Position numbers and translations under genes: made by a program
Shown here: positions 27,947 through 32,031 of the stretch, piece after piece
How positions within the stretch are numbered: the stretch's first letter is position 1
Layout: each line of letters starts with the position of its first letter
The notes under the pieces: model-generated
What the model was told of the DNA's origin: nothing
The model's input: only the letters and a program-made list of their open reading frames with translations
Databases searched by the model: none
Source: Chloroflexota bacterium
GTDB taxonomy: Bacteria > Chloroflexota > Dormibacteria > Dormibacterales > Dormibacteraceae
NCBI GenBank assembly: GCA_005883575.1
Contig: VBFH01000030.1
Span: forward strand, 62,001-126,000
Reading direction: 5' to 3'
Length of the DNA stretch: 64,000 bases

Positions 27947-28681
27947 CTAAACCGTGATCCTCTTGAACGACTCCGCGTACTGATAGCCCCCGCGCTTCCC
28001 CACGTCCCGGTGCCGCCTGCGCATGAACTTCTCGAAGTCCCATTCCCGGCCCGGTTTTGAGACCTGGCTCTTGTGCTTGCGCAGCGCCTCGATCTTGCGG
28101 TCGAGAGTGGGCGTGATGTCGACCAGGTAGTCGCCCAGCGTCCAGAAGGGGATCCAGACCTCTTTCACCTCGTGCGGTTTGAACCCCTGCTTCAGCAGTG
28201 AGCGAAATGCGCGCGGGTTGCGCGAGTCGGGGTACACGGCCGCCATCGTCGCCTCGCCCACCGCCAGGTGGTCGGGGTGGGAGCCGCCCATCGGCGCATC
28301 GAGCACCCGCCCGGGGATATGCGTGATCACCAGCTCAGGCTTGTACTTGCGGATCTGGCGGACGATGTCGCGCCGGAGATTCAGATCGGGCGACAGGTGG
28401 CCGTCCCTATAGCCGAGAAACTCCACGCGCTTGACGCCGAGAACCTTCGCCGCCGCCCGCTGCTCCTTGGCGCGGATGGCGACCAGCTCGGAGTCCTTCT
28501 GGGCCGGATCCTCGCCACCCTGCCGGCCGTCGGTGACGATGACGTAGGTGACCTCAGCCCCGCTGTCCGCCAGCCGCGCGATCGAGCCCCCGGCGCCGAA
28601 GTCGGGGTCGTCGGGGTGGGCTGAGACTACCATCACCCTTTGAAATTTCGGCAGCCTGCCGTTGCTGCGCGCCGTCGCCAT
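27947..28681 (-). CDS. PIG-L (LmbE-like) deacetylase
   Basis: This 244-residue zinc-dependent N-acetylglucosaminyl deacetylase-family protein has MVVSAHPDDPDFGAGG (metal-binding HPDD) and GGSHPDHLAVGEATMAAV, with the third metal ligand in HPDH. The family includes MshB, BshB and LmbE, which remove acetyl or acyl groups from sugar conjugates. It lies 18 bp downstream of the five-repeat protein gene at the end of the long minus-strand run. The substrate is unknown; a role in thiol (mycothiol/bacillithiol-like) metabolism is possible but is not indicated by its neighbours. Confidence 0.87.
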   Translation of the reverse strand: MATARSNGRLPKFQRVMVVSAHPDDPDFGAGGSIARLADSGAEVTYVIVTDGRQGGEDPAQKDSELVAIRAKEQRAAAKVLGVKRVEFLGYRDGHLSPDLNLRRDIVRQIRKYKPELVITHIPGRVLDAPMGGSHPDHLAVGEATMAAVYPDSRNPRAFRSLLKQGFKPHEVKEVWIPFWTLGDYLVDITPTLDRKIEALRKHKSQVSKPGREWDFEKFMRRRHRDVGKRGGYQYAESFKRITV

Positions 28682-28699: not shown

Positions 28700-30550
28700 C
28701 TAGCGACGCGCCCGTGCAGGCGCGCTGAGCGAGGACAGGGGGATCGCCGGCTGGATCGGCTCCCACAACGCCTCCAGCTGCTGAGCCGTCAGGCGCGTGC
28801 GCACGGCTATCACCCGACCACCGAACGCCGCCGTCTTCACCGCCGCCCATCCCCCGCCGGCCGCCAGGCGCATCGGCACCGTCACGACCGCGGCCAGGGC
28901 GGCCGCCTCCTCACCCGGCCGCGCGCCGCCGTCGGCCACGGCGCGGGAGAGCACGCTGGACAGCTCGTCGTCCAGCTGCCAGGCACGCGCCAGCGTGGCG
29001 CACTGGCTGGCACCGAGGCGGCCTACCGCGGTCACGTAGCGCGAAACCATAGCGCCCAACGAGCGCGGGTTCGTCACGGGTATGGCTGAGGCGAAAGGCG
29101 CGTACGACGCCGCGAACTTGATGGGCGTCAGCTGCTGGCGGTGGACCAGCGCAGACACCGCGTGCCATGTGGCCACGGCCTCGTCGTCTGAGCGCCCGCC
29201 GAAGAAGTCGATCAGCGCCGTACCCGCGACGACCAGCGGAGCCACCGCTTCCACGTTCGCCTCGGGCGCGGCGGCGGCCACGCGCTCCCAGTCGGACCTG
29301 TCAAGCGTCGCGACCTTGTGCGCGAACCCCCCACCGTTGAGCGCCTCGAAAGCAATCGACGGCTCGAACGGCGTCATCGCCAGGCGTACCTGGTCTGGGT
29401 TCACGCCTCCTTGCGCCTCGACCGCGAAGCCCGCACGCTCCACGGCCGCGAACGCGCGGCACCGCGTGTACGTGTCGAGATCGCGGGTGGCTTGGAGCGC
29501 GATCAGGATCGAGCGCACCACGCCCGCCGGCTCGACCGTCCCTTCGCGCGTGACGCTCGCTACCAGCTTGCGCCGGTCGAGCACCCGCAGCCACTGGATC
29601 GGAGACAGCTCGGCCAGCCCTTTGATGAAGGCGGCCACCTCCGCGTGGTTTGGCCCGTATAGGGCCGCGACCTTCACCCCCGAGGGTGCCGGCGCTCGGC
29701 TTCGCGGCGGCCTGGTGATCGTCTTGATGGCGTTGGCGACGGTGTGGACGACGTCGGTCCGCGGCGCGGGCTCGACCTGACTCAGCGACGCCAGCGGAAT
29801 GGCCGGCTCAAGGGGCGCCCACAGCTGCGCCGCCTCATCCGGCGTGAGCTCGCCCAGCGCGGCAAGCACCCTCCCACCGTGGACCGCGGTTCGGACCGCC
29901 GCCCACCCCTCGTCGCCAACGAGATGGTGCGGGATGACCGAGAGCGCGGCCACCGCCACGGTCTCCTCGCTTGTGCCGTGCCGGCGCTTGGCGACGGCCT
30001 GAAGGAGGGCGCGCGACGCTGCCGGTTCGATGCGCCAGCGCCTGGCCAGGTCGGCCAGCTGCTCCCTGCTCAGATCTTCGAGCAGGGCGAGGAAGCGCCG
30101 CGTCTTCGGATCTAGGACGTCTGCGCCGGAAGGCGGAATCATCGCCGCAAACGGCGCGTAGTGAACGGCGAACTTCAGGGCCGGGAGATGCGAGCGCATG
30201 ATGAGCGCGGTCATGGCCTGCCACGCCGTGACCTGCTTCTCGTCGCCCTTCTTGACCAGCGTGTCGAAAAGCACCTCGCCTGCGCGGGCCATCGGCTCGG
30301 AGATGCGGCCGTCGCTGCTCCTGATCGCCGCCTGGATGGAACGGGCGGAGTCGCTGCCGCCGGTTGGGTCCTTGCTCACCGAGCCGACGAGCCGGCGCGT
30401 CGTCTGCACCTGGCGCCATTGCCACGGAGTCAGCTGCCCCACGGCGGCGATGAACGCCTCGACCTCCGCGGTATGCGGGCCGAAGCGATGCGAGGCGACA
30501 TCGTTGGCCCTCTGGATGCGGCCGAGCAGACCATGGGAGGCGGGAGCCAC
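28700..30550 (-). CDS. Five-repeat helical protein of unknown function
   Basis: This 616-residue protein, from GTG at 30550, consists of five divergent copies of a roughly 85-110 residue unit at about residues 28-140, 150-256, 303-404, 409-492 and 500-608. Each unit begins with a helix of the AEVAAFIKGLAEL type, has a W/A-A motif in the middle (AWQAM, GWAAV, AFAAV, TWHAV, GWAAV), and ends in YAPFAAMIP, LEPAIPL, FEPSIAF, YAPFASAIP or IQPAIPL. Units 1-2 and 4-5 resemble each other most, which suggests nested duplication. No signal peptide or transmembrane helix is clear. It follows pyk by 41 bp and precedes the PIG-L gene. I do not recognise the family. Confidence 0.7.
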   Translation of the reverse strand: MAPASHGLLGRIQRANDVASHRFGPHTAEVEAFIAAVGQLTPWQWRQVQTTRRLVGSVSKDPTGGSDSARSIQAAIRSSDGRISEPMARAGEVLFDTLVKKGDEKQVTAWQAMTALIMRSHLPALKFAVHYAPFAAMIPPSGADVLDPKTRRFLALLEDLSREQLADLARRWRIEPAASRALLQAVAKRRHGTSEETVAVAALSVIPHHLVGDEGWAAVRTAVHGGRVLAALGELTPDEAAQLWAPLEPAIPLASLSQVEPAPRTDVVHTVANAIKTITRPPRSRAPAPSGVKVAALYGPNHAEVAAFIKGLAELSPIQWLRVLDRRKLVASVTREGTVEPAGVVRSILIALQATRDLDTYTRCRAFAAVERAGFAVEAQGGVNPDQVRLAMTPFEPSIAFEALNGGGFAHKVATLDRSDWERVAAAAPEANVEAVAPLVVAGTALIDFFGGRSDDEAVATWHAVSALVHRQQLTPIKFAASYAPFASAIPVTNPRSLGAMVSRYVTAVGRLGASQCATLARAWQLDDELSSVLSRAVADGGARPGEEAAALAAVVTVPMRLAAGGGWAAVKTAAFGGRVIAVRTRLTAQQLEALWEPIQPAIPLSSLSAPARARR

Positions 30551-30591: not shown

Positions 30592-32031
30592 TTAAACGGT
30601 CTCGACTTTGAGCAAGTTGGTCTGGCCGGGGCGACCCACGGGGACGCCCGCCACGACCACCACTCGATCGCCCTCCCGCACCATGCCGCTCTCCAGGGCG
30701 GCCGCTGTCGCGTTCGAGATCATCTGGTCCGTGTCGGTGCCCGGCCTGACCAGGAGAGGGATCACGCCGGAGTAGAGGGCGGTCCGCCGCAGGACCTCCT
30801 CGTGCGGACTCGCCGCGATCACGGGCATGGGCGGGCGCGCCTTGCTGCATCGGAGCGCCGTGGTGCCGGACTCGGTGAAGGCGATGATGACCTTTGCCTG
30901 CAGTTCGGTCGCGGTCGACGCCGCGGCGTGGGCGATCGCGCTCCCCACCTGCCCCGGCTCCCGCCAGAACTGCCGGGCGCGCTCGAAGTCGGGGTGCTTT
31001 TGGGCCGCGATGCAGATCCGGGCCATCGCGCGGACGGCCTCGATTGGGTGGGCCCCGATCGACGTCTCCTGGGACAGCATCACCGCGTCGGTGCCGTCCC
31101 AGATCGCATTGGCGACGTCCGAGGCCTCGGCGCGCGTGGGCCGGTTGGACGTGACCATCGATTCCAGCATCTCGGTCGCGGTGATCACAGGCACGCCGGC
31201 ACGGTTGGCGCGGTCGATCACGTCCTTCTGCACCGCCGGCAGGTCCCCCAGCTTGAGCTCGACCCCAAGGTCGCCGCGGGCGACCATGACCGCATCGGCC
31301 ACCTCGAGGATCTTGCTGAGGTTGCGGATGGCCTCGAGCTTCTCCAGCTTGGCGATGACAGGAATGGTTCGGTTGAGCCCGGTGATGTGCTGCTGGCACA
31401 TGAGCACGTCTTCTGGTCGGCGGACGAATGAGAGGGCGATGTAGTCGACCCCGAGGTCGACTGCGAGCTTCAGGTCCTGTATGTCCTTCTCGGTCAGCGC
31501 GGGAAGAGGCAGCGGGCGGCCGGGAACGCTGATGCCCTTGCGCTCGCCGAGCAGCCCGCCGCGGACGACCGATGCTTCGGCACGGCCGTCGTTGACGGCG
31601 CGAACCGCAAGCTCGATCCGCCCGTCATCCAGGAGGACGCGATCGCCGACGCGAAGTGCATGCACCAGCTCCGCGTGGCTGACCTCGATCCTGTCCTCCC
31701 CATCTGTGGGGAGGTGGCCCGAAGGGCCCGGGGGGAGGGAGGCAACCAGAACGACGGACCGTCCGCGCACGAGGCGCTGAAAGGTCCCTTCGACCGGTCC
31801 CGTCCGGATCTTCGGTCCCTGAAGGTCTCCCAGCAGCGCCACCGGACGCCCCACAGCCTCCGCCGCCTCGCGGACGTTCGCGGCCGCCTCGCGATGCGCA
31901 TTCGCGTCGCCATGCGAGAAGTTCAGCCGCGCCACGTCCATTCCGGCCTGGATCATCGACCGCAGGACCTGAGGCGACGAGCTGGACGGTCCGATCGTGC
32001 AGACGATGCGGGTCCGCCTGATTGGTGTCAC
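30592..32031 (-). CDS. pyk: Pyruvate kinase
   Basis: This 479-residue enzyme transfers phosphate from phosphoenolpyruvate to ADP, the last step of glycolysis. It has RIVCTIGPSS at the N-terminus, MDVARLNFSHG, KIRTG, the active-site VIAKLEKLEAIRNL segment (Lys and Glu of the metal site), MVARGDLGVEL, and a C-terminal regulatory domain beginning near ITATEMLESM. GTG at 32031 overlaps the stop of the yacP-like gene by four bases. It stands in the same transcription direction as the rlmB-yacP pair. Confidence 0.96.
   Translation of the reverse strand: MTPIRRTRIVCTIGPSSSSPQVLRSMIQAGMDVARLNFSHGDANAHREAAANVREAAEAVGRPVALLGDLQGPKIRTGPVEGTFQRLVRGRSVVLVASLPPGPSGHLPTDGEDRIEVSHAELVHALRVGDRVLLDDGRIELAVRAVNDGRAEASVVRGGLLGERKGISVPGRPLPLPALTEKDIQDLKLAVDLGVDYIALSFVRRPEDVLMCQQHITGLNRTIPVIAKLEKLEAIRNLSKILEVADAVMVARGDLGVELKLGDLPAVQKDVIDRANRAGVPVITATEMLESMVTSNRPTRAEASDVANAIWDGTDAVMLSQETSIGAHPIEAVRAMARICIAAQKHPDFERARQFWREPGQVGSAIAHAAASTATELQAKVIIAFTESGTTALRCSKARPPMPVIAASPHEEVLRRTALYSGVIPLLVRPGTDTDQMISNATAAALESGMVREGDRVVVVAGVPVGRPGQTNLLKVETV

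Follow-up and report, generated by a model that had tools for sequence, protein, structure and literature searches.

Alpha-solenoids of the TPR, HEAT, ARM and PPR classes are all-helical tandem repeats, presumed to bind proteins, which are assembled from units of ∼30 to 50 amino acids (aa) containing two or three helices. Successive helical bundles are found in the talin rod and in vinculin/alpha-catenin, and the phage proteins of PHROG 8332, known here by their profile alone, have not been assigned a function. The protein described here is encoded within a 64,000-nucleotide stretch of contig VBFH01000030.1 (the window) and shares with the TPR, HEAT, ARM and PPR proteins a predicted all-helical, tandemly repeated chain, whereas its units measure 87 to 119 aa with five to six helices each. 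It belongs to an uncatalogued all-helical domain family, with no entry in Pfam or NCBIfam, that is widespread in an understudied and largely uncultured phylum. Literature searches on the lineage together with repeat proteins, alpha solenoids or pyruvate kinase found nothing relevant. The five-unit protein is by itself of modest general interest; the notable feature is its position beside pyk together with a paralog beside glpX. That members of the family adjoin key enzymes of central metabolism, the five-unit protein by pyruvate kinase and a two-unit cousin by the gluconeogenic fructose-1,6-bisphosphatase (FBPase), is a mild surprise.

A conserved gene between pyk and a PIG-L deacetylase gene

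The gene spans positions 28700 to 30550 of the window on the minus strand, from a GTG start codon at 30550 to a stop codon at 28700, and encodes a protein of 616 aa. The host is an uncultured soil Chloroflexi (Dormibacterota) bacterium with a 3.6-Mb genome, and its near relatives are Chloroflexi/Candidatus Dormibacterota MAGs. Homologs were identified in 31 of the 42 genomes from the family (Dormibacterota), partly as fragments on broken contigs, and full-length orthologs shared 46 to 84% identity. The GTG start was kept at the equivalent position in most congeners, and within-genus dN/dS values of 0.13 to 0.21 indicated purifying selection. Long spurious frames do arise in high-GC DNA, yet the likelihood that this frame is degenerate or exists by chance is negligible, as such a reading is refuted by the dN/dS values, the full-length orthologs and the structured model described below. 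The gene encodes a real, conserved protein that has been vertically inherited with fixed neighbors.

Directly upstream, across a gap of 41 nt, lies pyk, encoding pyruvate kinase (positions 30592 to 32031, minus strand; PF00224; E value, 6e−105). Directly downstream, after 18 nt, is a gene for a PIG-L family deacetylase (27947 to 28681, minus strand; PF02585; E value, 3.5e−33). Both neighbors, like the exact coordinates of the gene, were given correctly in the original prediction. The order cysS-rlmB-yacP-pyk-gene-PIG-L was kept at every ortholog locus that retained neighbors on the contig; at two loci (L049 and L055) long insertions after pyk part it from the five-unit gene, and in congeners the PIG-L gene is often nearer, at about 10 to 60 nt. 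No σ70-like promoter was identified in the stretch and no convincing terminator between the genes. From the shared strand, the 41- and 18-nt gaps and the lack of these signals, we infer that the five-unit gene is probably cotranscribed with pyk and the PIG-L gene.

In the congener G016 and in G024/G025, which lack the five-unit gene, pyk directly adjoins the PIG-L gene. Sister genera carry in the same slot, between pyk/yacP and PIG-L, a gene for a minimal histidine kinase of ∼220 aa (HisKA plus HATPase_c) without a sensor domain (L187, L188, L190, L191, L192, L193 and L196). Thus, the slot is exchangeable and the five-unit gene dispensable, and pyk does not need the five-unit protein.

Five units of two repeat types

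Units were cut from an alignment of 27 ortholog sequences and compared profile against profile using hhalign; in addition, unit pairs from the single sequence were aligned by Smith-Waterman and assessed against 300 shuffles. All units are encoded on the minus strand. Unit 1 (U1; type A; residues 22 to 140; positions 30131 to 30487) contains six predicted helices, from H27-38 to H124-135, and is followed by unit 2 (U2; type B; residues 145 to 256; positions 29783 to 30118). After a disordered and unconserved linker (residues 259 to 295; positions 29666 to 29776; pLDDT ∼30) in which no column was invariant, unit 3 (U3; residues 296 to 405; positions 29336 to 29665) represents a type A′ that bridges to type B and contains the invariant-rich segment IQWLRVLDRRKLVASVTRE. 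Unit 4 (U4; residues 407 to 493; positions 29072 to 29332) is a shortened type A, and unit 5 (U5; type B; residues 496 to 608; positions 28727 to 29065) is the most conserved, with 37 of its 113 columns invariant.

Strong profile-profile matches were obtained for U1-U4 (E value, 1e−24), U1-U3 (4e−22) and U2-U5 (1e−33), with scores of 122 to 182 compared with up to ∼23 for column-shuffled controls. Between type A and type B the similarity was weak, with E values of 5e−5 (U2-U3), 8e−5 (U3-U5) and up to 0.09. The pairs U2-U3 (31.6), U3-U5 (30.7) and U3-U4 (25.3) also scored above the column-shuffled controls and U1-U5 barely so, whereas U1-U2, U2-U4 and U4-U5 did not. Smith-Waterman z scores were 21 for U1-U4, 30 for U2-U5, 14 for U1-U3 and 5 for U2-U3, and alignment of U1U2 with U4U5 gave a z score of 49 over shuffles; in the alignment these two pairs share 37% identity. 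Strong similarity within types coupled with weak similarity between them denotes two repeat types rather than five equivalent copies. On these comparisons the architecture reads as A-B-A′-A-B, in which an A-B pair has been duplicated and a further A-like unit bridges both types.

The original prediction of five divergent repeats of roughly 100 residues was therefore confirmed, each repeat being an all-helical unit, and their divergence supports the old duplication that it proposed. The shared opening, here of the form F/YGP-N/H...EVxxFI..L..W, and the central motif, here W-x-A/A-A, were present, and the end motif, P-F/L/I-x-x-x-I-P, held in four units and was weaker in U3 (PFEPSIA). Across the orthologs, conservation was dominated by Trp, Phe, Leu and Arg, with 11 of the 12 Trp residues invariant, and invariant His, Asp, Ser and Thr were rare. 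The invariant positions thus have for the most part a structural character, a pattern that speaks against an active site of the hydrolase or transferase type. The protein showed neither a recognizable catalytic site nor a domain with known chemistry, and it has no transmembrane helix.

Predicted structure and searches for a known family

Using AlphaFold2 on the ortholog alignment, the whole protein was modeled as all helix (mean pLDDT, 79.5; pTM, 0.54). The helix order h1 to h6 was repeated in U1, U2, U4 and U5 and slightly reduced in U3, and the ∼37-residue linker after U2 was modeled as disordered. A model of the U4-U5 pair, generated from 31 pair sequences, reached a pTM of 0.72, with pLDDT mostly 84 to 97, and for the greater part above 90, in U5 and 55 to 84 in U4. 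The models thus predict tandem, separate bundles of five to six helices and ∼90 to 120 residues each, the relative packing of which is uncertain at these pTM values. Internal repeats are present in the predicted fold. The alpha-solenoid that had been considered likely is not supported as stated, since separate bundles, a disordered linker and uncertain packing do not allow a continuous solenoid to be taken as established fact.

Pfam searches identified no family for the window protein at E values up to 10 and none common to the 27 orthologs, and scans of the window protein against NCBIfam, PADLOC and PHROGs, as well as a sequence-profile search of the PDB, returned no match. When the whole model and the model of the U4-U5 pair were each compared with the PDB using Foldseek and VIA-align, no E value fell below 0.6 and the best Z score was 4.3, which is background level for helical bundles; a viral structure library likewise gave no convincing match. 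The earlier view that the protein belongs to no known family is consistent with these searches, none of which returned a full-length match to one.

A two-unit paralog immediately after glpX

A two-unit A-B paralog is located immediately after glpX, which encodes a class II FBPase, and matches the five-unit family with an hhalign E value of 8.7e−7. In the genome of the host it lies outside the window (G000:C39:77779-78573; L185:4279-5080). The paralog was found in 31 of 31 genomes carrying the five-unit gene, and in G016, although this co-occurrence may reflect only one clade. Its reading frame opens at a CTG codon overlapping the TGA stop codon of glpX, forming a 4-nt CTGA junction, and the sequence CTGAGCG was identical in 20 of 20 distinct genomes examined (other loci: L101 to L111, L113 to L117, L119, L120, L082 and L098). 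None of the 20 genomes carried ATG, GTG or TTG in place of the CTG. Where the last glpX codon is CGC or CCC, a C-to-A or C-to-G change in it would be synonymous and would create ATG or GTG. Judged from sequence, translation could restart at the CTG, a rare event, or a −1 frameshift could fuse the paralog to the FBPase; a programmed −1 frameshift is not favored because no conserved slippery heptamer was present. The CTGA overlap suggests that expression of this relative is coupled to that of a second enzyme in the glycolysis/gluconeogenesis pair.

An unnamed superfamily across Chloroflexota

Relatives were collected by searching the class Dormibacteria and another class of the phylum with profiles; the names of neighboring genes for which no Pfam result is cited rest on reading of the sequences. 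Counts for profile A6 include in part the rows from which this profile was built, and they were left out of the membership evidence. These searches place the unit in an unnamed superfamily across Chloroflexota that has one-, two-, three- and five-unit members, and the repeat signature extends beyond the window protein. A C-terminal hairpin (A..AA.AL..R..L....F..LY.PF/W...IP) was present in the superfamily alignments A4 and A6.

Single-unit relatives of ∼166 aa occur near nuoA-B-C genes in another family (L083:1708-2211, L087:1745-2245 and L095:1667-2266) and match the five-unit profile with an hhalign E value of 1.1e−12. They adjoin an unnamed gene that precedes nuoA-nuoB-nuoC, and its ∼205-aa product had no Pfam match. 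Another class of the phylum carries a tandem pair of two-unit proteins with acidic linkers beside thrH, between the genes for threonine synthase and aspartokinase (L171:4316-6656, L172:3374-5990 and L173:3748-6100). A single-unit relative located two genes from glpX was also observed in another class (L266:2670-4773). Many Dormibacteria carry small members of 90 to 150 aa beside a DoxX-like gene, beside ssb or between infB and rbfA. A single-unit family of ∼142 to 149 aa is found across Dormibacteria in shifting contexts (L183:4619-5047, L254:2684-3112, L255:2668-3117 and L247:2503-2940) and carries the motif GYG...SPAGVERAAxGWDxH...LVRPMxEALPWLLP. With E values near 1e−4 and the PHROG 8332 matches given below, inclusion of the 90- to 150-aa proteins in the superfamily is probable, not certain. 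No scanned relative had a Pfam match above the cutoff or a relevant NCBIfam match.

The PHROG 8332 profile (248 positions) matched a thrH-side two-unit relative (E value, 3.5e−8) and a ∼142-aa small relative (9e−6), and more weakly the nuo-side and glpX-side relatives. As a query it found matches in 46 of 110 Dormibacteria genomes, many of which contained superfamily members among them. This profile was made independently, and its matches to several groups of relatives support a single superfamily. The same matches, together with the wide variation in copy number and context, could also point to a domesticated phage-type module that was spread by mobile elements and has no dedicated metabolic partner. 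This origin is very unlikely, given that the orthologs are strictly syntenic, that PHROG 8332 had no match to the window protein at an E value of 0.01 and that tblastn searches of plasmids and phages with the relatives gave no match.

Charge differs among the members. The five-unit protein is basic (net charge, +10; pI 9.8), and its net charge was positive in 27 of 27 orthologs. Helix 2 of both U1 and U3 bears a basic strip (W-R-x-V...R-R-x-V..V-K/R), which in U3 includes the invariant residues R322, R326, R327 and R335; this strip could be a surface for contact with DNA or RNA, and one small relative does lie beside ssb. However, U3 is neutral overall, net charges are negative in the glpX paralog and in the single-unit relatives (−2 to −11) and no known nucleic-acid-binding fold was matched, making this function unlikely for the window protein. 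As a property of the family it was rejected, since the sign of the charge varies among members.

Proposed function and comparison with known systems

For a modular helical protein in which Trp, Phe, Leu and Arg are conserved, the most fitting reading is that of an adaptor that binds proteins. The five-unit protein would be soluble and nonenzymatic, with its tandem helical-bundle modules providing protein-protein binding surfaces, and, less certainly, could be an accessory adaptor or regulator that is coexpressed with pyruvate kinase. Its role would be to tune or anchor the enzyme without being essential to it, and the two-unit paralog would be its counterpart for the class II FBPase encoded by glpX. 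The paralog, the two-unit relatives beside thrH and the fixed pyk-gene-PIG-L order help the pyruvate kinase reading. That the slot is exchangeable, that insertions part pyk from the gene in L049 and L055 and that the relatives occur in varied contexts weigh against a strict enzyme-partner rule, and the members found next to ssb, a DoxX-like gene, infB-rbfA or nuo indicate that enzyme partnership is not the rule in the family. A noncatalytic adaptor with pyruvate kinase as its partner is thus put forward tentatively, as a plausible reading that falls short of an even chance.

The adaptor could also have another partner, such as the PIG-L protein, a complex of amino-sugar/thiol metabolism or an unlinked protein, and its place behind pyk could be historical. 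The slot can hold an unrelated gene or stand empty, PIG-L is linked just as constantly and often lies closer in congeners, and superfamily members adjoin many unrelated genes, all of which make this a credible reading, again somewhat below evens. Against it, the glpX paralog makes a link to central carbon enzymes look less accidental, and the PIG-L gene stays in place also where the five-unit gene is absent.

Extending the pyruvate kinase adaptor to the family, the helical modules could be dedicated, coexpressed adaptors of metabolic enzymes in Chloroflexota, serving pyruvate kinase, the class II FBPase (through the CTGA overlap or a frameshifted fusion) and threonine and respiratory enzymes; this broader proposal has a small, though appreciable, chance of being correct. 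If such an adaptor family were true, it would imply lineage-specific coordination of glycolysis and gluconeogenesis. Should the partner-enzyme idea hold, a hidden layer of metabolic control would be uncovered; otherwise, the proteins form a clean conserved family.

Unlike TPR, HEAT, ARM and PPR proteins, the window protein has no match to a Pfam repeat model and is predicted to form separate bundles with a disordered linker. The top structural look-alikes were weak and included talin R1R2 (Z score, 4.3; 68 residues aligned; 4.7 Å) and the vinculin tail (Z score, 3.6; 89 residues aligned; 4.3 Å). These proteins differ in being eukaryotic and without sequence similarity to the window protein, and the matches had Z scores below the helical-bundle background and Foldseek E values above 0.6. 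The likeness to the talin rod and vinculin/alpha-catenin is one of analogy only and lies in the succession of helical bundles along the chain.
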